Virus record (IMG/VR): IMGVR_UViG_3300040808_000595
Coordinates: 1 to 29,880 of that record
DNA from: a virus
Direction: 5' to 3' (one strand)
Length of the DNA: 29,880 bases
This document shows, one piece after another, positions 13,680-29,880 of this stretch. The notes beneath the pieces are model-generated. The model was not told the origin of the DNA. It saw nothing but the letters and a program-made list of their open reading frames with translations, and did no database searches. A program made the position numbers and the translations under genes. Every line of letters starts with the position of its first letter. Position 1 is the first letter of the stretch.

Positions 13680-13704
13680 AGAGACTCCCATTCAAGTTAA
13701 ACAT

Positions 13705-13733
13705 ATTATATTATAAGACTATGGAAAAGTCAA
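13705..13733 (-). promoter_or_regulatory. Sigma-70-type promoter for gene 43
   Basis: TTGACT (13733-13728), a 17-base spacer and TATAAT (13710-13705) on the minus strand, 26 bases before the gene 43 start. A second overlapping TATAAT (13715-13710) has a 12-base spacing and is less suitable. Confidence 0.85.
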
Positions 13734-13736
13734 GAA

Positions 13737-14159
13737 CTATTTTGCCAAAAACTCCTTAACAAGAGCCCTATTGGCTATATGTTTTTCGGCAATTAGTTCT
13801 TTAGATTGCCCTGTGTATTGGACGGCATGATGATCTCTAACAAGCATAGCGTTTAGACTGTTTTGTCTATCTTCAACCCCATCATATATGATGAAGTCCC
13901 CGAGAACTCTACCAAATTTCCCTGACTTGTCTTTATGGGTTCGTAGTATAGCACCATTGGACAGTGCTGCCTCGACATACTCCTTTGCCAATATTCCGTA
14001 CTTTTTTTCAACGAGATCACGGGTTCTACTTTCCGGGGTGTCGACGCCGTATAGCCTAACCCTTTCATTACGGATCCATATACCGAATCCCAAGTCGATA
14101 TCCACATCTACGGTGTCTCCATCTACTACTCTTCGGATGTCACAGTTATATTCGTACAT
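13737..14159 (-). CDS. Thermonuclease (staphylococcal nuclease family)
   Basis: A 140-aa protein of SNase fold. VVDGDTVDVDIDL carries the Ca2+-binding aspartates, RVRLYGVDTPE contains the catalytic Arg and acidic residue, and GKFGRVLGD contains the second catalytic Arg. The length matches a single SNase domain without a signal peptide, so it acts inside the cell. Enzymes of this family cut DNA and RNA; degradation of host DNA to feed replication is a plausible use but is not shown. It starts 2 bases after the stop of the Sm-like gene, with AGGGG as ribosome-binding site. Its stop is just upstream of the gene 43 promoter. Confidence 0.93.
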   Translation of the reverse strand: MYEYNCDIRRVVDGDTVDVDIDLGFGIWIRNERVRLYGVDTPESRTRDLVEKKYGILAKEYVEAALSNGAILRTHKDKSGKFGRVLGDFIIYDGVEDRQNSLNAMLVRDHHAVQYTGQSKELIAEKHIANRALVKEFLAK

Positions 14160-14161
14160 GA

Positions 14162-14491
14162 CTACCCCTTGAGTATTTTTTGTTCTTTAGTAATAATGCC
14201 TGCGTGTTTAGGCATATTGTGAATTCTTCGATATTCAGCCTCGAGCTCGTCTTCAGGATCATATACTGAGACAATATGAGAAGGCATCACGGGAACCTGC
14301 TTGTCTTTAGCGAAGGGTGCGTAAGGAGCTAGTCCAATACCAAATTCGTCAGGGTTATTTTCTTTTGGCATCATCATAATGAGAGCCGGTTTGTTCATTG
14401 TAATTAGCTTACTGCCATTGTATTCAACTTCACTGACATCACTAATAACATCTTCGCCTGAACTTAGCTTAATGATTTGTATATTAGACAT
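14162..14491 (-). CDS. Sm/Hfq-like small protein (putative)
   Basis: A 109-aa protein. The N-terminus IQIIKLSSGEDVISDVSEV followed by LITMNKPALIMMMP has the L-x-x-G-E ... x-x-x-x-N-P-A pattern of an Sm-like beta barrel, which I associate with small conserved proteins of marine T4-like phages. The C-terminal 40 residues (YDPEDELEAEYRRIHNMPKHAG) look helical. If the fold is right it may bind RNA or a protein partner. The start is supported by AAGGAATAAATTATG, which also resembles a RegA-type target. It is followed by the thermonuclease gene after 2 bases. A strong hairpin lies directly upstream, so its own promoter is unclear. Confidence 0.6.
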   Translation of the reverse strand: MSNIQIIKLSSGEDVISDVSEVEYNGSKLITMNKPALIMMMPKENNPDEFGIGLAPYAPFAKDKQVPVMPSHIVSVYDPEDELEAEYRRIHNMPKHAGIITKEQKILKG

Positions 14492-14516
14492 AATTTATTC
14501 CTTAATAATATATAGT

Positions 14517-14543
14517 GGTTGAGGGGGGAGACCCCCCTCAACC
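14517..14543 (-). terminator. Strong GC-rich hairpin after hsp20
   Basis: A perfect 12-bp stem (GGTTGAGGGGGG with its complement) closes a 3-base loop, 13 bases after the hsp20 stop. It would end the hsp20 transcript. The minus-strand tail is AT-rich but not a clean U-run, whereas the plus-strand tail is GTTTTGTT, so it may also block antisense transcription. Confidence 0.8.
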
Positions 14544-14556
14544 GTTTTGTTACGAG

Positions 14557-15006
14557 TTATTTAATTTTAATTTCCTGAGGTTTTTTCTCATCAGGAATAA
14601 CTCTTTGTAGTTCAATCACCAACATCCCATTAGTAAACTCGCCACCTACTACCTTAACTTCTTCTGCCAAGGCAAAAGTTCTTGTAAAGTTTCTCGCACC
14701 AATGCCCTTGTGATAGTATTCTTTCTCATCAGGACCTCTGTCCTGAACACCTTGGATAACTAGTTTGTTACCTTTAGGAACAAGATTGACATTAAATTCT
14801 TCTTTACGGAAACCCGCTGCTGCGATTTCAATTGAGAACTTGTCTTCTTCTGGGTGGTTAATAATGTTATAGGGAGGATAGTTATTAGCAATCTCTGAAA
14901 CGTTCTTCAGGTTTTCTAATACTCCATCGAACCCTATTGTAAATGGACTAATTCTATTAAAAATCTCGTCCACGTGTGATGTGTTGAATCTATAATCTGC
15001 TACCAT
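14557..15006 (-). CDS. Small heat-shock protein (Hsp20/alpha-crystallin)
   Basis: A 149-aa protein. YPPYNIINHPEEDKFSIEIAAAGF starts the alpha-crystallin domain, which continues through LVIQGV. YYHKGIGARNFTRTF and LAEEVKVVGGEFTNGMLVIEL are the IbpA-type signature. The C-terminal tail KKPQEIKIK contains the I-x-I oligomerisation motif. It is an ATP-independent holdase that keeps unfolding proteins soluble; T4-like cyanophages commonly carry one in this same regA-43 interval. A TATAAATA late-type motif lies 60 bases upstream, and a strong hairpin follows the stop, so it can be a separate late transcript, perhaps for virion protein folding. Confidence 0.95.
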   Translation of the reverse strand: MVADYRFNTSHVDEIFNRISPFTIGFDGVLENLKNVSEIANNYPPYNIINHPEEDKFSIEIAAAGFRKEEFNVNLVPKGNKLVIQGVQDRGPDEKEYYHKGIGARNFTRTFALAEEVKVVGGEFTNGMLVIELQRVIPDEKKPQEIKIK

Positions 15007-15065
15007 ATTTTTCTCCTTAAATTAAGCAAGTTAAAATTCGGATACCCTTACGGCGTACCCGTTAC

Positions 15066-15073
15066 TATTTATA
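15066..15073 (-). promoter_or_regulatory. Putative T4-type late promoter for hsp20
   Basis: TATAAATA on the minus strand, 60 bases before the hsp20 ATG, at the end of the previous gene. The distance leaves room for a normal leader. Together with the hairpin at 14517-14543 it delimits a one-gene unit. Confidence 0.65.
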
Positions 15074-15680
15074 CAGTTTCTTCCTCTGCCTCAGATTTTT
15101 CTGCAGGTTTTGGATAAGTTGTATCTCGGTACCACACATTAGCCGCCCACTTCTCTCCCATGCCTACAGGCTCTCCGCCATGTAATGCTAATGGATGCTG
15201 AATTTTTGTGCCTGGGAATACTGTGCTGAAAATAACTAGCCTACCTTTCATAGCATCTACTCTTTTATGTAGTGCAGGAAAAGATGTGCCACCACCAGAT
15301 ATGGGTGTGTTCAAATATAACAGAGCAGTCATAACTCTTTGTGAGCCCTGTTTCTCTACTTCCTCTGGTTGGAATGTATCGTGGTGTGGTTTATATTCTT
15401 GAGTAGCGCCATAGTTAATAACCTGTATGGCTTCTGCTTGAGATGTGCTAATGAGTAGCTTACTTTCAAGTCTTTTGTATACGTTATCTACAAAATCACT
15501 AGAGCGCCGATGCAACCAAGCATTAGAGCTAGTTCGGTGTTCTGAAACGTGGGAATTACCAGACGATCCTACTTTGGATCTATCTAAACTATCTTTGGAT
15601 AACTCTATAATCTTATCGCATTCATAATTAGATAAAAAGTCATCCTCATAATATAAAAGAGGATTCAAATTCAATAGCAT
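15069..15680 (-). CDS. Prolyl-4-hydroxylase-like 2OG-Fe(II) oxygenase
   Basis: A 203-aa protein. YKPHHDTF supplies the Fe ligands H99 and D101; H167 (ALHGGEPV) is the distal Fe ligand; K177 in GEKWAANVWYR is the 2-oxoglutarate-binding Lys typical of prolyl 4-hydroxylases. The YLNTPISGGGTSFPAL segment is the expected core. It should hydroxylate a protein or peptide side chain; the target is unknown, and tail or structural proteins are candidates. It lies between RegA and Hsp20. The catalytic residues are all present, in contrast to the homologue at 20026-20559. Confidence 0.92.
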   Translation of the reverse strand: MLLNLNPLLYYEDDFLSNYECDKIIELSKDSLDRSKVGSSGNSHVSEHRTSSNAWLHRRSSDFVDNVYKRLESKLLISTSQAEAIQVINYGATQEYKPHHDTFQPEEVEKQGSQRVMTALLYLNTPISGGGTSFPALHKRVDAMKGRLVIFSTVFPGTKIQHPLALHGGEPVGMGEKWAANVWYRDTTYPKPAEKSEAEEETV

Positions 15681-16886: not shown

Positions 16887-17831
16887 TTATTTAAATTCAA
16901 CATTAGCCATGATCTCTGTGAGACATGCTGTAAGGTTAATCTCCTGGTCAGCCACGAATGCTGCTTTGTATTGATAGTCTGCAATGAGCAAAACCATTTG
17001 AGGAACGGATTTAATCTCAGGAAGTAATGAGTCAAAGATGTAACGGAAAATTCCTTGTGGATCTGTGTCCACATTGTTAGCAACCCACTGTCGCATCTTC
17101 TTCCAATCTTTGCCACGTAAAGAGTTAATCAACTCCTTAGTGTTTACTTCTGCAATGTTGCTGAGGATACCTTCGTCGATTATACCTGCCACAGAGTATC
17201 GCTGTAGTTCATTAATAACACGGCGATAGTCTGGGAAGTATTTAATTAGAAGTTCTGCTAAGACGTTTTCCTTAAACTCTACACCCTCATTGTTTAGGAT
17301 AACTTTCATACGATCCATGAACTTTGCTGCTAGCTTTGGTTTGTTACCATTGCCAGTTTTAAATTCAATAACCGTTGTCCTAGAATGTAAGGGAGAGATA
17401 ATTCGGTTCTTGTAGTTACAAGTAAAAATGAACCTACAATTCTCAGAGAATGTTTCAATAAAAGCACGTAAGGCAGGCTGTACTGAATCTTTATTCAAGT
17501 AGTCTGCTTCGTCAAGTATTACTACCTTAGTCTTACCCTCGAAACTAACTGCACTCGCGAACTGTTTAATTTTAGTCCTAAGTGTATCAATCTGACGACC
17601 CTCGTCCGAACCATTAATAATAATGTAGTCCGCACCAAGTTCTTCACACAGGGCTCTAGCTACTGTAGTCTTACCTGTACCTGCTGTTCCGCATAGTAAC
17701 AGGTTAGGAACTTCTCCTTGTTTTAAGAACTGCGAAAAAGTATTTTTTGTGTCCTCGGGGAGAACACATTCTTCAATTGTTCTCGGACGATACTTTTCCA
17801 CCCATAAGAATTTTTCTTGCACATTTTCCAT
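16887..17831 (-). CDS. 44: Clamp loader large subunit, gp44-like AAA+ ATPase
   Basis: A 314-aa protein. FLWVEKYRPRTIEECVLP is the classical clamp-loader N-terminus. GTAGTGKTT is Walker A, VVILDEADYL is Walker B (DEAD-type), and FTCNYKNRI is sensor 1. In the family the protein loads the gp45 clamp using ATP, together with gp62. The start is supported by AAGGTGAG 5 bases before ATG. Instead of following gene 45 directly, as in T4, it is separated from it by a 58-aa gene and a peroxiredoxin. Confidence 0.97.
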   Translation of the reverse strand: MENVQEKFLWVEKYRPRTIEECVLPEDTKNTFSQFLKQGEVPNLLLCGTAGTGKTTVARALCEELGADYIIINGSDEGRQIDTLRTKIKQFASAVSFEGKTKVVILDEADYLNKDSVQPALRAFIETFSENCRFIFTCNYKNRIISPLHSRTTVIEFKTGNGNKPKLAAKFMDRMKVILNNEGVEFKENVLAELLIKYFPDYRRVINELQRYSVAGIIDEGILSNIAEVNTKELINSLRGKDWKKMRQWVANNVDTDPQGIFRYIFDSLLPEIKSVPQMVLLIADYQYKAAFVADQEINLTACLTEIMANVEFK

Positions 17832-19390: not shown

Positions 19391-19717
19391 TTAGCTAGGG
19401 GTGTGTTCTACACCGTTCACAAAAATTTCAATGGTGACACCGTCAGATTCGCCACGCTGTTTAATATCTTGTAAAATATCTGTACCGCCATTTGCTTCAA
19501 TAGCAGTCAGGTATGTTTGAAAAGTTTCTTGATTTTCTGCGGTGAGAACTGCTTCTGCAACGGTTCCATCTTCATTCACATTGTAAGTCAGATCAATTCC
19601 GTGCGTTGTCAATAGGGAGCGTCTTTCGATATCCCAATCCGCTTGTTCAGCCGTAGCGGTTGGAAAGTCAACCAATACATTAGGGCGGGTGTATTTGTAG
19701 GTTACTACATGAGCCAT
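19391..19717 (-). CDS. Hypothetical 108-aa protein
   Basis: An acidic soluble protein with no recognised domain. The first 20 residues (MAHVVTYKYTRPNVLVDFPT) read as strands, then a helix (EQADWDIERRSLL), then a beta-rich middle and a hydrophilic C-terminus (VTIEIFVNGVEHTPS). The composition and the TATAAATA motif 37 bases upstream would suit a late, possibly virion-associated protein. It ends just before the gene 45 promoter, so it is not part of the clamp operon. Nothing in it points to an enzyme. Confidence 0.65.
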   Translation of the reverse strand: MAHVVTYKYTRPNVLVDFPTATAEQADWDIERRSLLTTHGIDLTYNVNEDGTVAEAVLTAENQETFQTYLTAIEANGGTDILQDIKQRGESDGVTIEIFVNGVEHTPS

Positions 19718-20045: not shown

Positions 20046-20559
20046 CTTTTAACCTCAAATAAGTCATTAATATGTATTGGTCCTCGTCCGCGGGGGCAAT
20101 ACTGTATTCATAAAGCCAAGCGTAAGGGAATACCGTTAGATACCCCTGTACCTGCTGTGTCTCTATTCCTGCGTGTTCAAATTTTATGTTACCACCTGAG
20201 ACAGTGTTTAGATGATACATCATTGCTAAGCGTCTCTTAGGGGTTCCATAATTATCAAAGAATACTTTAGCACCCTCTCCCTTTGGTATTTTAGTTACCA
20301 CCACGTGCTCAATCTCAGAACTTCTAAGCCTAAGAGAATTGACTACATACTGTGGTACTAGTGCCGAATAGGACCCAACAGAGGAGAGTATAGGGGCGCT
20401 AAGATTTGTCCTAAATTTACTATCCACATCTGAGAACAATAAGCACCCATTATGTGAATGATGATTTTGTGGATTCTCTTCCATTAACTTAATGGTCTCC
20501 CGGCACAAATCGTCCGGGAGACCTTCGTCAAAGTATTTGATGTAATTAGAAAGTAACAT
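20026..20559 (-). CDS. Degenerate 2OG-oxygenase-fold protein
   Basis: About 177 aa. The order RRLAMMYHLNTVSGGNIKFEHAGI followed by GYLTVFPYAWLYEYSIAP follows the double-stranded beta-helix of 2OG-Fe(II) oxygenases: R-L-x-x-x-Y-x-L-N, then G-G-x-x-x-F, then G-x-x-x-x-F-P. However the HxD motif reads FFD, the distal His position region reads YAWLYEY, and the 2OG-binding basic residue is Gln (DQYILMTYL). Iron binding by the usual triad is therefore unlikely. It may be a structural or regulatory relative. The start is uncertain: ATG at 20559 has AGGTG close by, and ATG at 20571 is an alternative. It overlaps the MoxR gene end. Confidence 0.65.
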   Translation of the reverse strand: MLLSNYIKYFDEGLPDDLCRETIKLMEENPQNHHSHNGCLLFSDVDSKFRTNLSAPILSSVGSYSALVPQYVVNSLRLRSSEIEHVVVTKIPKGEGAKVFFDNYGTPKRRLAMMYHLNTVSGGNIKFEHAGIETQQVQGYLTVFPYAWLYEYSIAPADEDQYILMTYLRLKDEAAAV

Positions 20560-21742
20560 CTTCACCTGCATCAACTACTTCTTCCGTCGCTACTTCTTCA
20601 GTAACTTCGGGTTGTGCCGCAGGGTCGACCTTTGAGTACAAGTCAACAAACGCTGCCTTTGTATCTTCATCGAACCTGTTGACACATAATTGTACAGCCT
20701 TGAGCTTATCACCGAACATCGCGAATGCGTTAACAATGTGTTCAAGCCTACGCGTGCTAACCAACTCGTCAATGGCGCCTTCGAAGTAAGTCTTACGAAT
20801 GACCTCGGACCATGTTACTAGGTGAGTAGCAAACTCTTCGTCTGTACAATTTGCTTTAGCCATTTTATTGAGAACAATCTTTTTCTCAGTGGCTGCTGTA
20901 GGGTATTCCTGCTCTACGGTGATTGCGAATCTCTCCAGGAACGCCTCGTCCAAAAGTTGGGCGCTGATGAACTTTCCGTCATCTGAGCCTTTGCCTTTTG
21001 TATTAGCCGTTGCCACAACCGTGAACCCGGGAGCAGGAATAACAGTCTCGCCGTTCTTCTTGTTAAAGTAAGATTTGCCTTCAAGTATGGCCTGGAGGCA
21101 CATGAGCTTGTTGGATCCTCTGTCTACTTCATCAAGGATAAGTACCGCGCCACGTTTCATGGCGGTGAGGACCGGTCCTTCTCTATAAACGACGTTACCG
21201 TCAACTAGTGTATTTCCACCGATCAAATCGTCTTCGTCGGTTTCAATACTAATATTTACACGAATCGCCTCACGTTTTAGATTCGCACATACTTGTTCAA
21301 CCATCGTAGTCTTACCATTACCTGATAATCCTGAGATGAATATTGGATAGAACATTGGAGACTGAAGAACTTTCTTCAAATCTCGATAGAAGCCAAAGGG
21401 CACAAACGTGCTGTCTTTGACTGGGATTAAATTTTCTATATCCACGTTTAACTTTGCCTGTGTTAGGACCTTGGCTTCAGGAGTCTCGACTACCATCACT
21501 GGAGTCTTTGGAACTACCTGCATCTGAGTCTTTTGGATTGGCGCCATGTTTCCTTGAAACATACTTGCCAAATTGTAAAGTCCTCGAGACACTTTCCAAT
21601 CGTCTTTGTTAACAATCCAGGACGGAAAGGGTTGTCCTAGTTCTTCGGCAGTCTTTAGGATATCAATCCTTTTGAACTGTCCGTTTTGAGTATCCTTTTC
21701 TTTCAATGCCGATACCAACTGCTCTCGTTCTAATGTCATCAT
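20546..21742 (-). CDS. MoxR/CobS-like AAA+ ATPase
   Basis: A 398-aa protein. Walker A is GLSGNGKT (about 138-145), Walker B is VLILDEVDRG, and VVATANTKGKGSDDGKF followed by LDEAFLERF carries sensor 1 and the arginine-finger region. This is the MoxR/CobS group, which remodels protein partners containing a VWA domain. Marine T4-like phages often have this gene, named cobS by homology with cobaltochelatase, though cobalamin work is unproven. A partner VWA protein is encoded two genes upstream at 22550-24793, with a near-identical promoter. I start at 21742 because GAGGAC precedes it; longer readings begin within the promoter's own start region. Confidence 0.92.
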   Translation of the reverse strand: MMTLEREQLVSALKEKDTQNGQFKRIDILKTAEELGQPFPSWIVNKDDWKVSRGLYNLASMFQGNMAPIQKTQMQVVPKTPVMVVETPEAKVLTQAKLNVDIENLIPVKDSTFVPFGFYRDLKKVLQSPMFYPIFISGLSGNGKTTMVEQVCANLKREAIRVNISIETDEDDLIGGNTLVDGNVVYREGPVLTAMKRGAVLILDEVDRGSNKLMCLQAILEGKSYFNKKNGETVIPAPGFTVVATANTKGKGSDDGKFISAQLLDEAFLERFAITVEQEYPTAATEKKIVLNKMAKANCTDEEFATHLVTWSEVIRKTYFEGAIDELVSTRRLEHIVNAFAMFGDKLKAVQLCVNRFDEDTKAAFVDLYSKVDPAAQPEVTEEVATEEVVDAGEDVTF

Positions 21743-21778
21743 AATATAGTCCTCACTATTTTTAAGTTGTTTTTTCAT

Positions 21779-21795
21779 TTTATACAAGTATTATA
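21779..21795 (-). promoter_or_regulatory. 17-bp shared element, copy 2
   Basis: Identical to the blocks at 2237-2253 and 24816-24832, spanning the -10 and start region of the MoxR promoter. See the finding on the three-promoter group. Confidence 0.7.
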
Positions 21796-21869: not shown

Positions 21870-22553
21870 TCAATAACTTAGGCCCTTACCTAACATTCCA
21901 CCCGTTTTATCTTCCGGATATTCCGTCGCAAACTCTAATTGCTCTACCAAACGTTCGTATACCTTAATCTCAGGACGCAAGTAACGGAACAAATCCATTC
22001 TATAATTAGGGTATTCTAGAGCCTCTTCAACTGCTGCTAGAACTTTAGGATCACTTTCGTTTCTTGTTTCAACTTGTGAATAACCCAGCTGGGTTAATAG
22101 TGTGTTCATTTGTTTTAAGTGAACTATCTTACAATTCTCAGGAACTACAAACCTATCTAGCCAGTTTGAGGTATGTACATCTCGCAATCCCCAATTATTA
22201 GAATTATTATGATTGACCTGGAACTTAATGTAATGATCCCAAAAGGAAGGGTCTCTTAAGATCGGCATTGAGACGAGATGGTTATGCAACTCTAGGTTAC
22301 TGAACTTCTCTTTTTCCTGTGGGCCCAACATTAACCTCGAGACAGAGTATGTCCTATTTGATATCAAGCCACTGACATACCTTTCATAAGGGTGTCGGAT
22401 AAGCATCCACTTCTGTTTCTTACCAGGCTCTAAATCTAAGTAAGAACCAGAGTTTATACCCTTGATATATCTTAAGGTTGATGTCCCTACTTTTGGAGCA
22501 GAGATTATGACATTATTTTTATCGTTAAAAATATCCAACGGTTTTGGAATCAT
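21870..22553 (-). CDS. Sulfotransferase family protein
   Basis: A 227-aa protein. IISAPKVGTSTLRYI (residues 16-30) is the 5'-phosphosulfate-binding loop and LIRHPYERYVSGL (51-63) is the 3'-phosphate-binding motif that together bind PAPS in sulfotransferases. It would transfer sulfate to a sugar, lipid or protein; the acceptor is unknown. The ATG overlaps the TGA of the VWA gene (ATGA), so its expression is tied to that gene. There is no membrane anchor, unlike Golgi enzymes. Together with the dehydrogenase and glycosyltransferase-like genes it suggests modification of a carbohydrate on the host surface or virion. Confidence 0.85.
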   Translation of the reverse strand: MIPKPLDIFNDKNNVIISAPKVGTSTLRYIKGINSGSYLDLEPGKKQKWMLIRHPYERYVSGLISNRTYSVSRLMLGPQEKEKFSNLELHNHLVSMPILRDPSFWDHYIKFQVNHNNSNNWGLRDVHTSNWLDRFVVPENCKIVHLKQMNTLLTQLGYSQVETRNESDPKVLAAVEEALEYPNYRMDLFRYLRPEIKVYERLVEQLEFATEYPEDKTGGMLGKGLSY

Positions 22554-24793
22554 GCTACCATATCCATAAACTTGCTTAGGAACACTCGCTTCTGAACCTT
22601 ACCTGAGTTGAACTTCTTAAAGCCTCGGAGTAGGTCGCCCTTCTTGTTAGAGTTAACTTCTAGGACATCTTCATCAATACCTAACTTCTTACCGTTAACT
22701 AGGAAACGAGCATCGTAGCCTACCTGATCTTGAATCATCAAGACACCATCTCGTCTAAAGGTTTTCATGTATTGTCCATCTTCAAAGGAGCACCAGCTAA
22801 AACCGCTATTGTATTGTTGGGTTGATTCAAACTCGTAGGTTACATTTCGAGTTGAGCCACCTTCCATTAAGTAGTAATTGATCGCTGAGGATCCTGTAGT
22901 CAACTTGAACATTTCAACTAGGAGAAGAGTGTTATAATTTCTATCTCTGCCTCGAACGTTTTTGCCGCCACCAACAATCAATTGCTTGTGTCTGAATACG
23001 GTTTTCTCATCGTGTCGTAAACCTTTACTCCAAATACGCTCATCTTCAAACGTTGATTGCTCCCAATACTCCACGCTATCTGTGGCTCCACCATCAGTTA
23101 GGAACAGTGTATTCATTATCTCTACATTGTTAGCCTTGCGGAAGTCTTTCACAATCTGCATTGCCATTATCAAAGTATGGTTGAGATTAGTTCCACCTAG
23201 TTGATAGTTTCTGTTCTCAACCTGCCACCATTCGTTTTCATAACGGTTGTATGATGAACGTTGGTTAAAGTATTCTGCATAACATAACAAGTGCTTCATC
23301 GCAGATTCAGTCTGAGTCTTATTCCATGAACCTGAGAACAAATGACGGAGCATCATGTCTTCTTTTTGTAGGGCAAATTGTCCTGGAATCCTTTGAGTTT
23401 CTACGGCGCCATATTCGCTGCTAGTCGTAAACCCATAAACCTCAAACGGAATATTGACTTTCTTACAAAACAACACCTGAGTCAACAGCTGTTCAATTGT
23501 GCCTGCCATGTTACCAGACATACTGCCTGACATATCAATAAACATACACATACCGTGGTTTTTACCGTTGGGCACAACCGTTGTCTGTTTGAAGAGATCT
23601 TCTGTTATCTTGTAAGCCCAAAGCTTGTCCTCGTTCAACTTACCTGTTTTAGAAATCTTTGCCTTAGACATCTGTGTTGCTTTACGCTTCATCTCGAATT
23701 GCTGAACCATATGATTAACAACCGAGTTATTTTTTGCCTTGAATGTTGAGAGTAGTTCAGTTGCTACCAGCTCTGTATCTTTAGCAGCGTCTGCATAATA
23801 GTCTGGCATAATCTTGAAACTCTTGTTCAAGCCTGTGTACATCTCGCGCGCTGGGACTACATACTTTTTCCAGTCCTTAACCTCAGGGATGTCTATGTAA
23901 ACCGGTGCCAAGCTATCTAAAGCTACCAACTTCTTTTCGTTTTTTCGGAAAGCTTGATCTGTGATTGACATCTCGCCGTCGCTTTCCATAAACTCGTCTA
24001 ACAAGTCCTGGGCAGTTGACTCGCCTTCTTCGGATTCTTCGGATTCTTCTTCATCATCTGAGTCTGAAGAGCTGTTGCCTGATTGATTTGTTTCTTCGGA
24101 TTCTTCTTCGTCATCCTCCTGTTCATCATCTGAGCTAGGAGGAGGGGGAGGAGGAGTATCCATTTCATCGTCGTCTTCGAAGTCCTCGTCTGAGTCTTGA
24201 GGAACATACTGTTGCTGTTCCTTCATTTCTTCGGCTTCTTTTTGAGAGTTGCCATACAACTCTTGAGCTAACTGCTCAACGTCTGCCCATGTCTCAGTTT
24301 TTGCTACACGGTCTACGAATACTTGTTCTTCGTCTGTAAAATTAATGCCTAGGAGAGAACCTACTTTAAAGTGAAGATTGATTCTGTCAATTAGTGGAAG
24401 TTCGTTAACGTCTAAATCCTTAACACCAAAAAAGTCTCGGGCAAAAAGTTCTCGGTAACCACCGTAGAAACTTTTAACTAGTCCAGGATAACGTTCTTTT
24501 ACTTTACGCTCGATACGAGCATCTTCTACAATGTTGAGGAAGCCTTTGAGCTTGGGGTCTTTAGAAACTGAATCGTGCCAGCCTTCCTCAGGAGTCTCTA
24601 AACCGTGTCCGACTTCGTGTCCTACTAAGAGGTCATAAAGATCAGGGGAGATGTCTTTCCATTGGGGGAGGAGGATCTTTCGATTCTTAAGGTCAAATGC
24701 TGCTGTTGGAATGTTGGCGTGTTCTACCTGAACATTCTCCGTCGCTAGCAGTTTTGCTAGTATCGACTTTTGGTTGTTTATTTGTATCGTCAT
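22550..24793 (-). CDS. CobT-like VWA protein with N-terminal HExxH motif
   Basis: A 747-aa protein. Near the N-terminus, HEVGHGLETPEEGWH (H59, E60, H63) is a zincin-type metal motif. A long acidic, low-complexity linker follows at about residues 195-265 (six consecutive prolines, then Asp/Glu/Ser runs). A C-terminal VWA domain has the MIDAS motif DMSGSMSG near residue 420 and the later FLTDGGATD. CobT of cobaltochelatase has a similar acidic linker plus VWA layout; the HExxH part suggests a peptidase instead. VWA proteins usually work with MoxR ATPases, and one is encoded downstream. The start follows GTGAGGACT, the same ribosome site as the MoxR gene. Whether the HExxH domain cleaves protein is unknown. 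Confidence 0.9.
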   Translation of the reverse strand: MTIQINNQKSILAKLLATENVQVEHANIPTAAFDLKNRKILLPQWKDISPDLYDLLVGHEVGHGLETPEEGWHDSVSKDPKLKGFLNIVEDARIERKVKERYPGLVKSFYGGYRELFARDFFGVKDLDVNELPLIDRINLHFKVGSLLGINFTDEEQVFVDRVAKTETWADVEQLAQELYGNSQKEAEEMKEQQQYVPQDSDEDFEDDDEMDTPPPPPPSSDDEQEDDEEESEETNQSGNSSSDSDDEEESEESEEGESTAQDLLDEFMESDGEMSITDQAFRKNEKKLVALDSLAPVYIDIPEVKDWKKYVVPAREMYTGLNKSFKIMPDYYADAAKDTELVATELLSTFKAKNNSVVNHMVQQFEMKRKATQMSKAKISKTGKLNEDKLWAYKITEDLFKQTTVVPNGKNHGMCMFIDMSGSMSGNMAGTIEQLLTQVLFCKKVNIPFEVYGFTTSSEYGAVETQRIPGQFALQKEDMMLRHLFSGSWNKTQTESAMKHLLCYAEYFNQRSSYNRYENEWWQVENRNYQLGGTNLNHTLIMAMQIVKDFRKANNVEIMNTLFLTDGGATDSVEYWEQSTFEDERIWSKGLRHDEKTVFRHKQLIVGGGKNVRGRDRNYNTLLLVEMFKLTTGSSAINYYLMEGGSTRNVTYEFESTQQYNSGFSWCSFEDGQYMKTFRRDGVLMIQDQVGYDARFLVNGKKLGIDEDVLEVNSNKKGDLLRGFKKFNSGKVQKRVFLSKFMDMVA

Positions 24794-24815
24794 TAAAAGT
24801 CCTCACTTTTATTAA

Positions 24816-24832
24816 TTTATACAAGTATTATA
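24816..24832 (-). promoter_or_regulatory. 17-bp shared element, copy 3
   Basis: Identical to the blocks at 2237-2253 and 21779-21795, covering the -10 and start region of the VWA-gene promoter. Confidence 0.7.
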
Positions 24833-24855
24833 AACTCTTTATCTGCAGAAGTCAA
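24827..24855 (-). promoter_or_regulatory. Sigma-70-type promoter for the VWA/sulfotransferase unit
   Basis: TTGACT (24855-24850), a 17-base spacer and TATAAT (24832-24827) on the minus strand, 34 bases before the VWA start. Confidence 0.88.
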
Positions 24856-24875
24856 GCAAAAAACGCACTTTTTTT
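24849..24875. repeat. 27-bp promoter-upstream repeat, copy B
   Basis: Exact copy of 21812-21838; see that entry. The bases on each side differ, so the repeat is bounded at 27 bp. Confidence 0.85.
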
Positions 24876-24896
24876 GAATTCTTTTTCCTTGTTAAA

Positions 24897-26393
24897 TCAG
24901 TAGTTTAGGGCTAAAGTCAACAAATATTCACGTCCGCCGGCAGTATATTGGGGTAAAATCTCGAATTCTCTATCAAAAACGTCCCTAATTTGGAACATTA
25001 CATTGTAGATTCCAAAGTCTTTTCCTATATGTAACTGTGCTGATTTTACATCCTCGAGCGGTGTTTTGTCAACGTCTCGTCGTCCGTTTTGGTATGCTAG
25101 TTTGAACCCGTAGGTATAACCCTTGTAGTCGTCCTCAAACATGATTGCTGTACGAAGTTTAGGGATCCTTGGAAGATCTGAATGTGTGACTGCTATAACT
25201 GTCTTGAATTGTTTGTAGTAGGCTAGTACCTTAATACCCTTGGTACTGTAGGAGCCTGTGTTCACATACTGGTTATTGACATAGTCGTAATCTATACCCT
25301 CGTCAAATTCGTAGGCGAAAGCTGAAAAAATTTTATATCGTACGTCGACACCTTGCCCCTCCTCTGCGTTGAGAAACCGATTTGGTGATACCCAACCGTC
25401 GCCGTTCGTTTCATATAGAGTCGGTCGCCTATAACTATTCCCTACACTAATTGAAAAGTCTGGGGTTCTGACACCTACTTTATATACGAATACATCATCG
25501 TTCTCATATCTTAGTCCTGCATTAAACAAATCATAGGTAAGAAAAGAGTAGACTGATCCAACTGTTAACTTTTCGGCACCATTATCCTCTCTTTCTACGT
25601 TTGATCCAAGTAGTACATAATCGTTGACATACTTACGAGCATCTAAATAGTATCTTTGATTTTTAGAAGAGTAGCTCTCTTCACCGTTTCTCAAAAATGT
25701 TTGTTCGTTTTCTACGAACCCAAGTGTTGCATTTTCGCCTTGTATTGATAACTCGTGCTTCCTACCCTTTTGTTCACAATCGTCAGACTCCCAGCATGAA
25801 TCATAATCGTATTGGTAATCTGTTAAAGCATAATTTAATACACCCGTTTGAAGTCTTAAAACATTGTTATGGTAGTCGTCTTCTTCCTCATTGGTGTTCA
25901 TTACGCTACCATTCGATGCTTGCTTAGATGCTATAGAAAAGTATTTGTCGCCAACTGAAAAATATTTTGAATCACTGCCTGCTTGAGCTATGAAGTGTTT
26001 TCTAAGTTTGTCTGTTATAAAAACAGTGCCTGCTAAACTACCCGAGCCTGTGAGTACACTATTGGGCCCATGAGCAATCATGATCTCTTGGTATTGTTGA
26101 GGTAGATCGTTTGCCCAGTCATACCAACCAGTAGAAGGATCGTTAACGGGTACGCCGTTCCTAAAGACTCTGGTATGTGTAGAACTCTGTCCGCGATCTC
26201 TAAAAGAAGAAAATCCACCAGTACCACCTGGGGTAAAAACCATTGATGGTAAGATGGATTCAATTGTTGAAGTGTTAAGTGCAGGGTCTACTTCTACTTT
26301 GTTAATGGGTTGCCCTACAACAATAACTTCTTCTATCGTCTGTCCGTGTGCAATTGTGCTCATAAGAGCGAAACATAATATAAGGTGTTTCAT
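24897..26393 (-). CDS. TonB-dependent outer-membrane receptor
   Basis: A complete 498-aa protein. Residues 1-17 (MKHLILCFALMSTIAHG) form a Sec signal peptide. IEEVIVVGQ is a TonB box. Residues about 45-130 form the plug domain (FSSFRDRGQSSTHTRVFRNG, then HGPNSVLTGSGSLAGTVFI). SYRRPTLYETNGDGWVSPNR and LNAEEGQGVDVRYK are the barrel landmarks of BtuB-like receptors. The C-terminus IRDVFDREFEILPQYTAGGR ends in YLLTLALNY, a beta-signal for BAM insertion. It is shorter than usual (about 600-700 aa) but unbroken. Such receptors import siderophores, cobalamin or metals using TonB. It starts 3 bases after the His-rich gene stop and lacks a visible ribosome-binding site, so it may rely on coupling. A TonB receptor in a T4-like phage genome is unexpected; phage core genes lie on both sides. 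Confidence 0.93.
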   Translation of the reverse strand: MKHLILCFALMSTIAHGQTIEEVIVVGQPINKVEVDPALNTSTIESILPSMVFTPGGTGGFSSFRDRGQSSTHTRVFRNGVPVNDPSTGWYDWANDLPQQYQEIMIAHGPNSVLTGSGSLAGTVFITDKLRKHFIAQAGSDSKYFSVGDKYFSIASKQASNGSVMNTNEEEDDYHNNVLRLQTGVLNYALTDYQYDYDSCWESDDCEQKGRKHELSIQGENATLGFVENEQTFLRNGEESYSSKNQRYYLDARKYVNDYVLLGSNVEREDNGAEKLTVGSVYSFLTYDLFNAGLRYENDDVFVYKVGVRTPDFSISVGNSYRRPTLYETNGDGWVSPNRFLNAEEGQGVDVRYKIFSAFAYEFDEGIDYDYVNNQYVNTGSYSTKGIKVLAYYKQFKTVIAVTHSDLPRIPKLRTAIMFEDDYKGYTYGFKLAYQNGRRDVDKTPLEDVKSAQLHIGKDFGIYNVMFQIRDVFDREFEILPQYTAGGREYLLTLALNY

Positions 26394-26396
26394 ATT

Positions 26397-26759
26397 TTAT
26401 TTGACGATGATGCGCTCAATAATTTCTACACAGGTTCCATACCCAGATTTTTGATTACTGCAAGGGAAGTGTTTGTTATAGGCATCATAATGATCTCGTG
26501 TCCTATAACGTCTGCGAGTTTGTGTTCGGTTAGGATCAATGATTGTATAAACCTCACCGTTGGGTCCGTATACTGTAATAGGCTGTGGGTGATAATGCCC
26601 GTGTCCATGCCCATGCCCGTGATTACTTTTCTTGTTAATAATTTCTCCAAGAATAATACCACCTACGACACCGCCGATAACGTCCTTTGTATCAGCAGCC
26701 GCAACGGGTGCTGTGTACATGGTGCCTGCGATTAATAATAGTCCAATTAAATATTTCAT
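26397..26759 (-). CDS. Secreted His-rich, glycine-zipper protein
   Basis: A 120-aa protein. A Sec signal peptide covers about residues 1-22 (MKYLIGLLLIAGTMYTAPVAAA). A short glycine-zipper-like stretch follows (VIGGVVGGIILGEII), then alternating His-Gly (HGHGHGHGHYHP), a typical Ni/Zn/Co/Cu-binding run, then an Arg-rich segment. The C-terminal part has two Cys (HFPCSNQKSGYGTC) that could form a periplasmic disulfide. It is likely periplasmic or outer-membrane-associated. It lies between the M15 peptidase and the TonB receptor, with good AGGAGA ribosome binding. Metal buffering or delivery linked to the receptor is plausible, not shown. Confidence 0.8.
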   Translation of the reverse strand: MKYLIGLLLIAGTMYTAPVAAADTKDVIGGVVGGIILGEIINKKSNHGHGHGHGHYHPQPITVYGPNGEVYTIIDPNRTQTRRRYRTRDHYDAYNKHFPCSNQKSGYGTCVEIIERIIVK

Positions 26760-26767
26760 ATTTTCTC

Positions 26768-27229
26768 CTATGAGCTCAGTCCTAAAGTGTACTGAGTTTT
26801 GCCATCAACTCGTGATGCTGTTAATGATTTGCCTCTGTTTCCTTCTGTGTTATACGACACATGAACCCAACCTGAGTCTGGGATACCTGACGTATAGAAC
26901 TCTAAGATTACTTGATCAAAGTCTGTATTTTCCTCAATCCATTTTGCTAAATGATAATTGGGTACACCGGCTACTTCAATATCTGCTGCTTGTCCTTTGC
27001 AATGCTGGGACCTAGAGCTACCGCCTACTGCTTTATTAAGTTCGTCGCCTCGATAACCACTGTTAATGTTAACAGGGCCAAAGTGGTCTCTAACTTTCTG
27101 CAGAACATTCTCACATAATGCGATTGCATTGTCCAAATGTTCTTTGGGCATAGAATTGTCTAAGCCTCGTCTTGTAGCAGTTTGCGACTTTTCAAATTCA
27201 GCTAGAGAAAAGTTTTTAGATAGTTTCAT
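26768..27229 (-). CDS. M15-type peptidoglycan peptidase (putative endolysin)
   Basis: A 153-aa protein. SQHCKGQAADIEV contains the S-x-H-x-x-G-x-A-x-D zinc motif (H76, D83), with R60 in NSGYRGDELN and the third ligand H123 in GWVHVSYN. This is the peptidase M15 (D-Ala-D-Ala carboxypeptidase/L-Ala-D-Glu peptidase-like) fold. It cleaves peptide bonds in cell-wall stems and is a common phage lysis or virion enzyme. There is no signal peptide, so access to the wall would need a holin. Both an early-type promoter (27273-27301) and a late motif (27260-27267) precede it, a dual pattern also known for T4 lysozyme gene e. The receptor and His-rich genes follow in the same unit. Confidence 0.9.
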   Translation of the reverse strand: MKLSKNFSLAEFEKSQTATRRGLDNSMPKEHLDNAIALCENVLQKVRDHFGPVNINSGYRGDELNKAVGGSSRSQHCKGQAADIEVAGVPNYHLAKWIEENTDFDQVILEFYTSGIPDSGWVHVSYNTEGNRGKSLTASRVDGKTQYTLGLSS

Positions 27230-27259
27230 AATCTTACTCCAAAATGTTACTATATCTCT

Positions 27260-27267
27260 TATTTATA
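27260..27267 (-). promoter_or_regulatory. Putative T4-type late promoter for the lysis/receptor unit
   Basis: TATAAATA on the minus strand, 31 bases before the M15 peptidase start and directly downstream of the sigma-70-type promoter. Confidence 0.55.
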
Positions 27268-27272
27268 AAACT

Positions 27273-27301
27273 ATTATAATACCGTTATGATATAATGTCA
27301 A
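27273..27301 (-). promoter_or_regulatory. Sigma-70-type promoter for the M15/His-rich/TonB-receptor unit
   Basis: TTGACA (27301-27296), a 17-base spacer and TATAAT (27278-27273) on the minus strand. The TGA stop of the ClpP-like gene (27300-27298) forms part of the -35 box. Confidence 0.87.
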
Positions 27302-27921
27302 GATGCTTTAGCTTGTTTTGGTACTCTAGGTTTGCGGGGTGCTTTTGTTTTGGGGGCTGGATTTTCTCTAATATCATTACGCTTAGAAAGACGTTTAATC
27401 ACTTCCTTAGAGTCCATCCAATAGTCCTTACCCTCAATAACAGATTCAATCTCTTGGGGAGTCATAAAGTCTGAATAGATATCAGTAAGCAAACGCTTTG
27501 CCCAAGTATGTTCTGCTAGAGCTCTAGAGATCAGTTCATTGCCTTTACCCCAATTACCTGAGGAGTAATTGTGTACCAAGAACTGGGTATGATCTGAAAC
27601 CTCACAAATGTCTGCACTTAGAAAAAGGAATGTTGCGGCACTCATACAAGCACCTTCAATTGATGCAATGATCCTTCCTTTACATTCAGACATAGAACGT
27701 AGAAGTTGGATCGTTGTCATGATATCGCCACCGTAACAATTGATGTGCAATATCACAACATCGTTCTCGGCACAATTTCTAAAACATTGATTCCAATTTA
27801 CATATTCTGATGGCCCTTCAATCGTATCATTTAGATACAAATCAATTACTCTACCAGCAACCCTCTCATAAATGTTTTGGTTGTTGTTATTAATAATGTC
27901 GTCAATTTTAAAGTCGTTCAT
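27298..27921 (-). CDS. ClpP-like serine protease
   Basis: A 207-aa protein. INCYGGDIMTTIQLL is the ClpP oxyanion/strand segment, EGACMSAATFLFL holds the nucleophile S94, LVHNYSSG holds H117, and EGKDYWMDSKE supplies the acidic member (D166 or D170). This completes the Ser-His-Asp triad. The tail is basic and Pro/Lys-rich (APKTKAPRKPRVPKQAKAS), unlike cellular ClpP. No ClpX/ClpA partner is in the window, so it may use the host ATPase or work in head maturation. It overlaps the upstream 125-aa gene by 14 bases and follows it and the deformylase in one string. Confidence 0.9.
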   Translation of the reverse strand: MNDFKIDDIINNNNQNIYERVAGRVIDLYLNDTIEGPSEYVNWNQCFRNCAENDVVILHINCYGGDIMTTIQLLRSMSECKGRIIASIEGACMSAATFLFLSADICEVSDHTQFLVHNYSSGNWGKGNELISRALAEHTWAKRLLTDIYSDFMTPQEIESVIEGKDYWMDSKEVIKRLSKRNDIRENPAPKTKAPRKPRVPKQAKAS

Positions 27922-28285
27922 AGTATCTAGTTACCGCCTTAATTTTCTCGATCTGTTTGTCAATGATAGCCGTTCTATTAGGCCAATGGATATATTCTTT
28001 ATCTGGATTCTTTTGTAAATTAAATAACAACGGTAAAATTAGATCTTCTAACTGTTTTAGTTTGTTAGCCACATCTTGTTCTACAAGTGTTCTGTGTTCA
28101 TTCACCATATCAGAGGAATCTGCATTTAAGATTCTTCCTTCGATGTCTAAAAGTTTTGCCATGACTTCATCTCTAAAGTCTTTGGTTACGTTCGTTACAG
28201 TTTCTGTAACTGATGATTGAGGTACGCTATCGTAATTTGGTTCTTCAACAGCTGTAAACCCAAAGTCAAAATTGTCATCTGACAT
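27908..28285 (-). CDS. Hypothetical 125-aa helical protein
   Basis: An unrecognised protein. The N-terminal 40 residues are acidic and probably disordered (MSDDNFDFGFTAVEEPNYD); the remainder reads as long helices (KDFRDEVMAKLLDIEGRIL, then LVEQDVANKLKQLEDLILPLL). It overlaps the deformylase end by 11 bases and the ClpP-like start by 14, so all three are translated together. A scaffold- or adaptor-like protein for the protease is possible, but only from position. Confidence 0.7.
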   Translation of the reverse strand: MSDDNFDFGFTAVEEPNYDSVPQSSVTETVTNVTKDFRDEVMAKLLDIEGRILNADSSDMVNEHRTLVEQDVANKLKQLEDLILPLLFNLQKNPDKEYIHWPNRTAIIDKQIEKIKAVTRYYERL

Positions 28286-28811
28286 TTCTTACTCCTTTTA
28301 CATTACGCTTAAACCTTTTTACTTTCTTGTCTAAGCCTTTGATTGCTCTGTCTAATTTAAACTTAGACGCTCTCATTGTAAAGTTTTTTCCTAGCATGTG
28401 ATCGTATTCGTGTAGTGCAATACGAGCAGCTAGGCTAGTGTAGGTTTCAATTACTTCCTTACCTTCTACATCAGTATATTGGAAGGTTGCTTCTGAGGGT
28501 CTGCTTAGTGATAACCATAACCCTGGGAAGGATAAACAACCTTCTTTTTCAATACAAGTTTCTTCGCTAACGGAAATTAGAAGAGGATTAAAAAGTGTTC
28601 TTTTAAACTCCTCGCCATGTACCATTGTAAACACTTGCATATCTAAACCAACTTGGTTTGCAGACAATCCAGCACCATTTAACATATTACATTTTTCGTG
28701 TAAAAGTTTAGACACTAGTTCTGCATCGTCTTTTTCGTAGTCGAATCGTGCAGGAGCCTCGTTCAGCCTTTTATCTCCAAATGGGATAAGTTCTAAATCA
28801 CCTAAGTTCAT
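28275..28811 (-). CDS. def: Peptide deformylase
   Basis: A 178-aa protein. GAGLSANQVGL is motif 1 (the usual GxGLAAxQ), EGCLSFPG is motif 2 with metal ligand C92, and HEYDHMLG is motif 3 with H134, E135 and H138. It removes the formyl group from N-terminal Met of new proteins. Marine phages commonly carry short deformylases; this one lacks an extended C-terminal tail beyond a basic helix (DKKVKRFKRNVK). The ATG overlaps the TGA of the glutaredoxin gene (ATGA). Confidence 0.95.
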   Translation of the reverse strand: MNLGDLELIPFGDKRLNEAPARFDYEKDDAELVSKLLHEKCNMLNGAGLSANQVGLDMQVFTMVHGEEFKRTLFNPLLISVSEETCIEKEGCLSFPGLWLSLSRPSEATFQYTDVEGKEVIETYTSLAARIALHEYDHMLGKNFTMRASKFKLDRAIKGLDKKVKRFKRNVKGVRNVR

Positions 28812-29047
28812 AGATTACTCGGATCTAAAAAGTCTTGGAATTCTCTAAAGCCACCGATTGTCTTCTGTTCTTCACCAATGACTATCTGTGGAAAAGTCCT
28901 AGCTCCTGGGAATGACTCTTGGAATGTTTCAAAGGTGTAGTCTGCATCTAACAAAAGGTATTCATAATCAAATCCTTTTTGTTCGCATAAGGCTTTTGCC
29001 GCATCGCAATAGCTACATCTTGTTTTTCCATAAATTGTTACTTTCAT
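28808..29047 (-). CDS. Glutaredoxin
   Basis: A 79-aa protein of single thioredoxin-fold domain. TRCSYCDAA has the C-x-x-C active site (C11, C14), TFPQIVIG the cis-proline, and IGGFREFQDFL the GG motif for glutathione binding. It reduces disulfides, in T4 serving ribonucleotide reductase. It may also recycle the phage peroxiredoxin. Ribosome binding is modest (AGGATAG). The TATAAATA at 29060-29067 is too close to the ATG to be a likely promoter. Confidence 0.93.
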   Translation of the reverse strand: MKVTIYGKTRCSYCDAAKALCEQKGFDYEYLLLDADYTFETFQESFPGARTFPQIVIGEEQKTIGGFREFQDFLDPSNL

Positions 29048-29062
29048 ATTTCTATCCTATAT

Positions 29063-29880
29063 TTATACCATCACCGAGTAATTTTGTTTTTTCTCAAACC
29101 TAATTACACTTCTAAACTTGTCAAACAGTTGATCTCCTTTATGACTTATGACAAATACATTAGTATCGTTTCCTATTGTATTTAGTAGAGTCATAACGTA
29201 GTCTGTTCCGTTATTATCTAGCGAACTATCAAACACTTCATCTAATAGAAGAAGGTTTGTGCTAGCACTGTTCTTCATTTTAGCAATCGTTCGCCAAGTG
29301 AAGATAAGAGCTAAATCAATTCTTTGTTTTTCCCCTTCGCTAAAACTTGCATAACTAAACTTATCTCTGTGTCTAGACTTAATTGTTTCTTTGAATGTTT
29401 CATCTAAATCAAACTGTACAAAGAAGTCCATCGCTGCTAAGTATTTATTAACCAACTTGTTTATAACAGGCAAATATTGGCGGATTATCTTAGTTTTAAT
29501 ACCAGAGTCCTTCAATAGTGCAGAGGCTACATCAAAGTATGTGTTTTCTTCACTTAATACTGAACGCTCTAAATTTTTACTTATAACATTTTTTGCTAAG
29601 GCTTTTAGTGTTGTTTTCTCAGCATCAATGTCCGCAACTTTATTTTCGGTGTCGTTAATTTCTAAATATAATCTTTGTAACACTCTTTGTTCTGTGATGA
29701 TGTCATTATTAATTCTCATGACTTCTTCATTTAACTCTAAATATTTTTCGTATGCCTCATCAACTTCTTTGTATGCCTCGTCTAATTCATTAAGGGCTTG
29801 TTCTAACTTATCAACACTATCTGTTTTTTCAGTAGTTATTCGTTCTTTAAATTCGTGTGGGATTCCTTGTTTACAGGTTG
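29063..29880 (-). CDS. 46: Recombination nuclease subunit gp46 (SbcC/Rad50-like), C-terminal part
   Basis: The reading frame stays open to the right edge, so about 271 C-terminal residues are visible and the N-terminal Walker A half is outside. At the edge, TCKQGIPHEF looks like the end of a CxxC zinc hook. A coiled coil follows, with a repeated DEAYKEVDEAYEKY. FSYASFSEGEKQRIDLALIF is the ABC signature, NLLLLDEVFDSSLD is Walker B with D-loop, and VFVISHKG is the H-loop. With gp47 it forms the Mre11/Rad50-type complex that degrades host DNA and resects ends for recombination. The ATG at 29719 is internal, not the gene start. Confidence 0.93.
   Translation of the reverse strand, partial: TCKQGIPHEFKERITTEKTDSVDKLEQALNELDEAYKEVDEAYEKYLELNEEVMRINNDIITEQRVLQRLYLEINDTENKVADIDAEKTTLKALAKNVISKNLERSVLSEENTYFDVASALLKDSGIKTKIIRQYLPVINKLVNKYLAAMDFFVQFDLDETFKETIKSRHRDKFSYASFSEGEKQRIDLALIFTWRTIAKMKNSASTNLLLLDEVFDSSLDNNGTDYVMTLLNTIGNDTNVFVISHKGDQLFDKFRSVIRFEKKQNYSVMV

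Follow-up and report, generated by a model that had tools for sequence, protein, structure and literature searches.

A family of BtuB-like TonB-dependent receptors encoded by T4-like phages, with a probable role in import

The nearest solved family to the viral receptor described here is BtuB, the cobalamin transporter of E. coli, which likewise has a plug, a 22-strand barrel and a TonB box, and with which the profile match is nearly full length. However, the viral protein is shorter (498 residues including the signal peptide, versus 594 in mature BtuB), about 18% identical, has very short loops L5 and L8 and a signature of its own (a GWYD plug apex and a Cys pair in loop L3), is not enriched at the cobalamin-contact positions, and is encoded by a phage. 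On the viral side, the accessible text on the marine megaphage Mar_Mega_1 reports a putative whole TonB-dependent receptor (TBDR), SusC, proposed to raise uptake in infection (PMC9723777). Among the predicted viral structures of BFVD, three matches reach E 0.001, and the sole named TBDR among the matches listed is ‘TonB-dependent receptor SusC [uncultured marine phage]’ (A0A8D9FQQ5, E 7.8e-14), presumably the Mar_Mega_1 protein. Unlike the present receptor, it is of the SusC type and has 805 amino acids, with 12% identity in a fold alignment. The family phrog_5687 (760 positions, function unassigned in PHROG) matches plug residues 58-142 (E 1.8e-6), which means that a plug of this kind occurs in one or more annotated protein families of phages or prophages, but the match is confined to phrog positions 91-181.

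The accessible part of PMC6302217 mentions ‘TonB-dependent receptors’ in phage genomes from hot springs, and the pelagiphage Polarivirus skadi carries a ‘TonB-dependent receptor protein’ between tail tube and capsid genes, which its authors, in the text available, read as pointing to the receptor used for adsorption (PMC10504331). What the Skadi protein shares with ours is the wording of its annotation. The CsgGF curli pore, an outer-membrane protein of Melnitz and pelagimyophages that is absent from the host, has been proposed as a lysis pore (PMC9004378, accessible text). Like the present receptor, it is an outer-membrane protein in marine T4-like phages, but the two are unrelated. CsgGF is not known to be energised by TonB. 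In the accessible parts of the openly available PMC literature no earlier description of the present viral receptor family was found, and this large viral TBDR family was apparently undescribed before.

By the window we mean the whole stretch of DNA analysed, namely the 29,880 bases of the IMG/VR virus contig IMGVR_UViG_3300040808_000595. Its ORF list contains a complete TBDR gene of 498 amino acids, from ATG to stop, at 24897..26393 on the minus strand, identified by the ORF itself, a Plug match, a structure model and a BtuB fold match. The parts of this gene and, further below, its upstream unit with the promoter-like sites and the CobT-like and CobS-like genes lie on the same strand. A signal peptide (residues 1-17, 26343..26393) was read by eye from an initial MK, a hydrophobic stretch and AHG followed by Q; directly after it comes the TonB-box-like stretch QTIEEVIVVG, in which the alignment places the motif IEEVIVV at residues 20-26 (26316..26336). 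The plug domain, delimited by the Plug match and alignment, spans residues 28-132 (25998..26312), with the apex motif ND..GWYDW at 83-99, and two structure models assign residues 133-498 (24900..25997) to a 22-strand barrel with compact loops L5 and L8 and with Cys200 and Cys206 in loop L3, both of which are invariant in 56 aligned rows. The Plug model PF07715 scores 39.9 bits (cut-off 23.9). The first-pass description of a complete gene with signal peptide, TonB box and plug holds. PF00593, the model for the barrel, gives no match to the window receptor and matches 5 of 36 family members, which we take as poor sensitivity of that model, while Plug matches all 36 at E<=0.01. By its plug, predicted barrel and TonB box, the protein would belong to the TonB-dependent transporters. 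By the curated cut-off of the TonB-B12 equivalog model (TIGR01779; 35.7 bits against 599.7) its sequence does not qualify as a BtuB orthologue.

Structure prediction, which had been suggested as a check of the BtuB-like plug and barrel, agreed with them. Specifically, AlphaFold2 model 2, built on an alignment of 56 rows of viral relatives, has a mean pLDDT of 80.5 and a pTM of 0.80, and shows a plug and 22 barrel strands (counted from the DSSP list) over residues 133-496; model 1, built on 36 rows (pLDDT 67.3), also has 22 strands. The best fold match of model 2 is E. coli BtuB (2gsk), with Z 31.9 and an rmsd of 2.4 A over 460 residues at 18% identity; ranks 1-12 are all B12 receptors and FhuA comes next at Z 27.6. 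For model 1, too, BtuB is first (Z 27.4), and the best 16 Foldseek rows are B12 receptors, with the caveat that BtuB is a small TBDR, to which a small barrel may be matched preferentially. A profile of 36 viral members searched against PDB gave six matches at E<=0.01, all of them BtuB (best E 7e-15), the best spanning profile positions 66-547 of 548. These predictions confirm that the window gene encodes a whole TBDR with a modelled fold like that of BtuB.

The receptor is not confined to the window. A Plug search of 38 virus records gave three matches, namely two further contigs with the window's gene and one with a 530-residue homologue, 38% identical over 515 columns. Scanning IMG/VR with this homologue yielded at least 80 relatives, and with the 36-member alignment 243 relatives among 275 pattern matches; the best 80 of the 243 were analysed further. 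The earlier statement that a T4-like phage carries a whole TonB receptor is confirmed, but the gene is no one-off. The 151 receptor loci include duplicate contigs, the distinct complete proteins numbering 84; at four loci the gene-picking step chose an overlapping ORF over that of the receptor, which leaves 147 scored. Among the 84 distinct complete proteins, a TonB-box-like pattern is found in 78, a plug-apex pattern of the [GS]WYD[FW] type in 81 and the L3 motif in 77. When the genomes of 84,980 prokaryote species were scanned by pattern, the 36-member alignment produced 30 pattern matches and the window protein 36, none of them relatives, and the nearest cellular donor was not found in these two pattern-limited scans. 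Since they require exact short patterns and may miss distant cellular kin, ‘virus-only’ is a provisional description. When four members were compared by tblastn with 50,697 phage records, only enterobacterial BtuB was returned (on Salmonella contigs filed among the phages), the remaining queries giving no match; the window query alone also retrieved enterobacterial BtuB on a Citrobacter plasmid.

Most members share one genomic site: 64 of the 84 lie within two genes of UvsW or its phrog_1250 neighbour, usually in the order gp32, UvsX, UvsY, phrog_1250, often a 373-residue protein, receptor and UvsW. In nine others the neighbour is a nucleosidase gene, with baseplate genes around it on the opposite strand; the endolysin/CobT-like site accounts for three, other places for four, and four are unscored. 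Neighbours are named from PHROG matches (UvsX-like, UvsY-like, ssDNA-binding, DNA helicase, baseplate wedge, hub), and the helicase is called UvsW by our own reading. Receptor and UvsW distances are correlated (Mantel r 0.712, 61 loci, 0 of 999 permutations). UvsW was also scanned for with an alignment from 13 receptor-bearing loci, and the best 80 of at least 596 were kept, some on contigs seen already; among these best 80, a receptor accompanies 10 of the 14 UvsW genes at least 65% identical to the query and 2 of the 50 below 65%, with 16 loci uncounted for too little upstream sequence, though one of these (L245) shows a match. The tracking of UvsW, together with the several sites, points to a gene that is stably kept in a phage clade and has also moved to other sites and to the window's clade. 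In the receptor tree, a quick build whose root is uninformative because BtuB sits on a very long branch, the seven members of the window's clade group together with SH-aLRT 93, which is below the starred level, and long branches meet there. By coincidence, one receptor-bearing contig (L146) also has 29,880 bases; in the part of it that was retrieved, no 25-mer of the window occurs in either orientation.

Chimeric assembly was considered and finds no support. In the contig IMGVR_3300020053_000679 the receptor protein is 97% identical and its gene is flanked on either side by the same neighbours as in the window, and IMGVR_3300040816_000283 has residues 81-498 at 100% and the downstream neighbours before it stops inside the gene; as one contig thus shares both gene borders and another shares one, a chimera is unlikely. 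A sister phage, represented by the four contigs L006-L009, is 49% identical to the window in the CobT-like protein, 75% in gp46 and 70% in Clp, and has the order gp46, glutaredoxin, deformylase, a 123-residue protein, Clp, a 232-residue protein, a lysozyme-like endolysin, a small secreted protein and the CobT-like gene, with the CobS-like gene following in three (L008 ends in the CobT-like gene). At this locus the receptor is absent from all four, with 105 bases between the small protein and the CobT-like gene, and the four records, of which one has 162,417 bases, gave no match to Plug. In L219 and L221, by comparison, a 490-residue receptor stands directly behind the peptidase M15 gene and ahead of the CobT-like gene, the locus being as in the window. 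The receptor is therefore an accessory gene at a known locus, missing there from sister phages. As the first-pass annotation had it, the surroundings are of T4 type: T4-type replication genes are present in the window contig and its DNA polymerase is 48% identical to those of cyanomyoviruses. The phage is called marine from its nearest named phages. The gp23 model (PF07068) matches 4 of 48 records, two with a receptor (G045, G081) and two without (G004, G006), all being fragments, and is not matched in the window fragment or in the UvsW-site contigs searched (fragments of up to 98.6 kb).

Upstream of the receptor, a Gly-zipper, His-rich, secreted-looking protein of 120 amino acids (26397..26759) ends three bases before the receptor start. 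A homologue with 37% identity occupies the equivalent position in L006-L009 (L007 7522-7881); no Pfam match was obtained for the window protein, nor a PHROG match for either. It is possibly a metal-binding or lysis-linked envelope protein. It bears an HGHGHGHGHYH run, and its homologue in L007 adjoins a different endolysin. Preceding it is a peptidase M15 endolysin (26768..27229; PF08291, phrog_894), whose place is taken in L007 by a lysozyme-like protein (7004-7450), an endolysin swap at one locus. The three genes are separated by gaps of 8 and 3 bases. At the head of the unit stand a perfect early (sigma70-type) promoter-like site, TTGACA-17-TATAAT (27273..27301), and a T4-late-type promoter-like octamer, TATAAATA (27260..27267), both also found in L001. 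Downstream of the receptor follows a CobT-like/VWA protein (22550..24793; phrog_459, Pfam CobT_C at E 0.11 only) with a promoter-like site of its own at 24855-24827, and further on a CobS-like AAA protein (20546..21787; phrog_249). A functional link between the receptor and these two genes finds no support, because L006, L007 and L009 have both without it.

Strict sigma70-type sites occur seven times on the coding strand of the window (0.01 expected), each of them 3-44 bases ahead of the start of an ORF, and not at all on the other strand; late-type octamers occur eight times on the coding strand (1.25 expected, at most 5 in 200 simulations) and not at all on the other (1.62 expected). Only the strict consensus is above chance, since a loose promoter scan of 22000-29880 gave 21 sites where 21.5 were expected. 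In L221 neither kind of site lies directly before M15, and the promoter pair is thus one seen in the window and L001. It suggests that the M15-receptor unit would be transcribed both early and late in the window phage. A late, envelope-timed role had been expected from transcription together with M15, but with a perfect sigma70-type site beside TATAAATA a purely late timing is less secure.

Within the family the gene is under constraint, with omega at 0.080-0.305 in 14 of 15 pairs and the fifteenth saturated. Between the window and L001 the receptor has an omega of 0.477, which says little, as it stems from 22 changes (8 synonymous, 14 non-synonymous). With model-1 strands, and with loop sides assigned by alternation rather than from coordinates, entropy is lowest in L3 (0.44 bits), the plug apex 83-99 (0.50), L9 (0.59) and L2 (0.66), against 1.28 bits for strands and 1.62 for periplasmic turns. 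The very short loops of 2-4 residues each are variable (L1 2.12, L4 1.88, L8 1.76 and L5 1.66 bits), which we count against the importer reading. In the 56-row alignment, plug apices have 0.87 bits versus 1.30 for the rest of the plug (p 0.02), and all extracellular loops 1.34 bits versus 1.70 for strands (p 0.001) and 2.38 for periplasmic turns (p 1e-6). Insertions of the long members fall in L5 and L8, loops that are almost nothing in the window receptor. Window residues 83-88 align with BtuB 85-91, beside sites 90 and 93, which the accessible text of PMC8341980 includes in substrate loop SB3. Conserved plug apices and several conserved loops would be the pattern expected of a kept ligand site; neither a decoy nor the titration of TonB would require it.

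Taken as a whole, these results lead us to lean towards the gene encoding a virus-specific TonB-dependent importer. The observations behind this are the complete gene, the predicted fold, the family, selection among relatives, synteny and the promoter-like sites. The host would make the receptor during infection, from the early-type and probably again from the late-type promoter; the signal peptide would export it for insertion in the outer membrane, the TonB box would couple it to host TonB-ExbBD, and it would bring a specific ligand that is scarce outside into the infected cell. The virus-borne receptor is very probably an importer, its ligand a candidate only. A fuller account, for which we see the chances as evenly balanced, is that the TonB-dependent transporters include an old branch found in viruses alone, inherited by T4-like phages with recombination genes and moved between sites, which gives each infected cell a new importer with its own viral ligand site that the host genome does not encode; lytic phages would then feed the factory from outside, with a cobamide, in support of the methionine/SAM supply, as a possible ligand.

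The three uses proposed at first (import, masking and decoys) are inseparable by sequence alone, and the conservation of plug apices and loops favours the import side. It is this conservation that bears on superinfection exclusion, in which the viral receptor would compete with the host's own TBDRs for TonB, or for assembly in the outer membrane, and shut out TonB-dependent phages or bacteriocins, with no need of ligand import. Host TBDRs do serve as phage receptors and an FhuA-blocking lipoprotein is known (title of 8a60); the TonB-box-like motif in 78 of 84 members and the early-type promoter site would also fit. Yet exclusion predicts no special ligand-side constraint, and the plug apices, L2, L3 and L9 are best conserved, so that we regard it as unlikely, if the most serious of the rivals. 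Decoys, that is, receptors shed in debris or vesicles that soak up competing phages or bacteriocins, would suit a compact barrel with little beyond the core fold, but would need no TonB box, which is kept in 78 of 84, and we give them very little credence. A role in the lysis programme, in which the receptor, produced along with the endolysin, would form a pore in the outer membrane or destabilise it, is improbable in our view: although the receptor stands one small gene behind M15 in the window and directly behind it in L219 and L221, a late-type octamer lies upstream and a curli pore of this kind has been proposed in the marine T4-like phage Melnitz (CsgGF; PMC9004378, accessible text), 73 of the 84 members adjoin recombination (64) or baseplate-site (9) genes instead of an endolysin, and a plugged barrel with a TonB box makes a poor pore.

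Import of iron, as siderophore or heme, for a di-iron class I ribonucleotide reductase (RNR) and other iron enzymes is an importer variant that we count apart. The TonB-hemlactrns model (hemoglobin/transferrin/lactoferrin) matches 24 of 36 members at E<=0.001, NrdB is present in 10 of 18 records searched, and the window has one 2OG-Fe(II) oxygenase by PHROG and others by eye. Against this, the B12 model matches 27 of the 36 at better E-values (best 5.7e-17, versus 1.6e-6 for TonB-hemlactrns), all six PDB profile matches are BtuB, and the NrdB-bearing records G004 and G006 have no Plug match; we consider an iron ligand rather unlikely. That the gene is host contamination, a mis-assembly or a decaying hitch-hiker is hardly credible: the window-L001 omega on its 22 changes shows by itself no strong constraint, but other assemblies, 243 viral relatives, phage-gene neighbours and omega of 0.08-0.31 among relatives all speak against it.

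Within the preferred importer reading, a cobamide is the leading candidate ligand, although a tentative one with about half of the weight, and another non-iron ligand has the rest. It leads because the nearest solved family across plug and barrel is BtuB. For the 17 cobalamin-contact positions named in the accessible text of PMC7360065, which also describes the BtuB calcium sites as a cage of aspartates, mean identity is 0.209 against a background of 0.226, with the loop alignment uncertain. Indeed, R497 and N276 map differently in the two alignments, the loop alignment being unstable, and a conserved B12 pocket that looked promising in the first alignment was undone by the larger one of 56 rows. 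As to the five calcium-cage aspartates, which we take to be D179, D193, D195, D230 and D241, D193 is kept in 51 and D195 in all of the 56 rows, and the other three are not; the window receptor has Thr at the D193 position. No B12 riboswitch was found in the window or in eight related loci. B12 import for a B12-dependent RNR was rejected as a general reason: the RNR large subunit (PF02867) is present in 10 of 48 records, the window fragment not among them, and as all ten also carry NrdB, the RNRs are class I; for the three that were typed, the best match was to RNR alpha models, in two cases of class 1a.

A role in SAM supply is possible in view of the gene neighbourhood and of the fact that B12 serves methionine synthase, the methionine step of the SAM cycle being one that can use B12. 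In some members metK, apt and an MTA/SAH-nucleosidase-like gene lie 3-10 genes downstream of the receptor, three in a row in L182, L193, L195, L201, L202, L205 and L212, and at the baseplate site a nucleosidase gene is directly upstream. Among the 147 scored loci, MetK is found in 24 (432 bits, cut-off 309), Apt in 26 (178 bits, cut-off 125) and a PNP-type nucleosidase, below its curated cut-offs, in 30. The row is a possible SAM-salvage module in T4-like phages, or the neighbourhood may simply mark a phage clade. SAM for DNA methylation was discarded as a reason: DNA_methylase matched none of 31 records, and N6_N4_Mtase one, below the cut-off.

Most phage metabolic genes known so far act inside the cell. 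If the importer reading is true, a viral importer family would mean that lytic phages also reshape the uptake of the infected cell, and it could be tested directly whether viruses control the uptake of micronutrients, be it B12, iron or some other ligand; at 498 residues the receptor would also offer a compact model for TonB-dependent transport. The accessible text of PMC10547690 speculates that virioplankton dependent on B12 may raise the uptake of this vitamin in the course of infection.

Several smaller observations concern other genes of the window and its relatives. Between the CobT-like and CobS-like genes lies a 227-residue protein (21870-22553), sulfotransferase-like by eye, for which L007 has no matching ORF at that place; its dN/dS between the window and L001, 0.836, is the second-highest of 17 genes. 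A radical-SAM-like gene stands beside a metalloprotease-like ORF (HExxH by eye) at 7440-8321 and 8321-9199, and L108 has a 644-residue twitch-domain radical SAM protein (13311-15245; NF033640, 262 bits) near its receptor locus. In the same comparison of the window with L001, dS is 0.084 in the clamp-loader gene (16887-17831) and 0.163 in a 108-residue gene (19391-19717), against 0.007-0.041 in the other 15 genes, which may reflect recombination between close phage strains.
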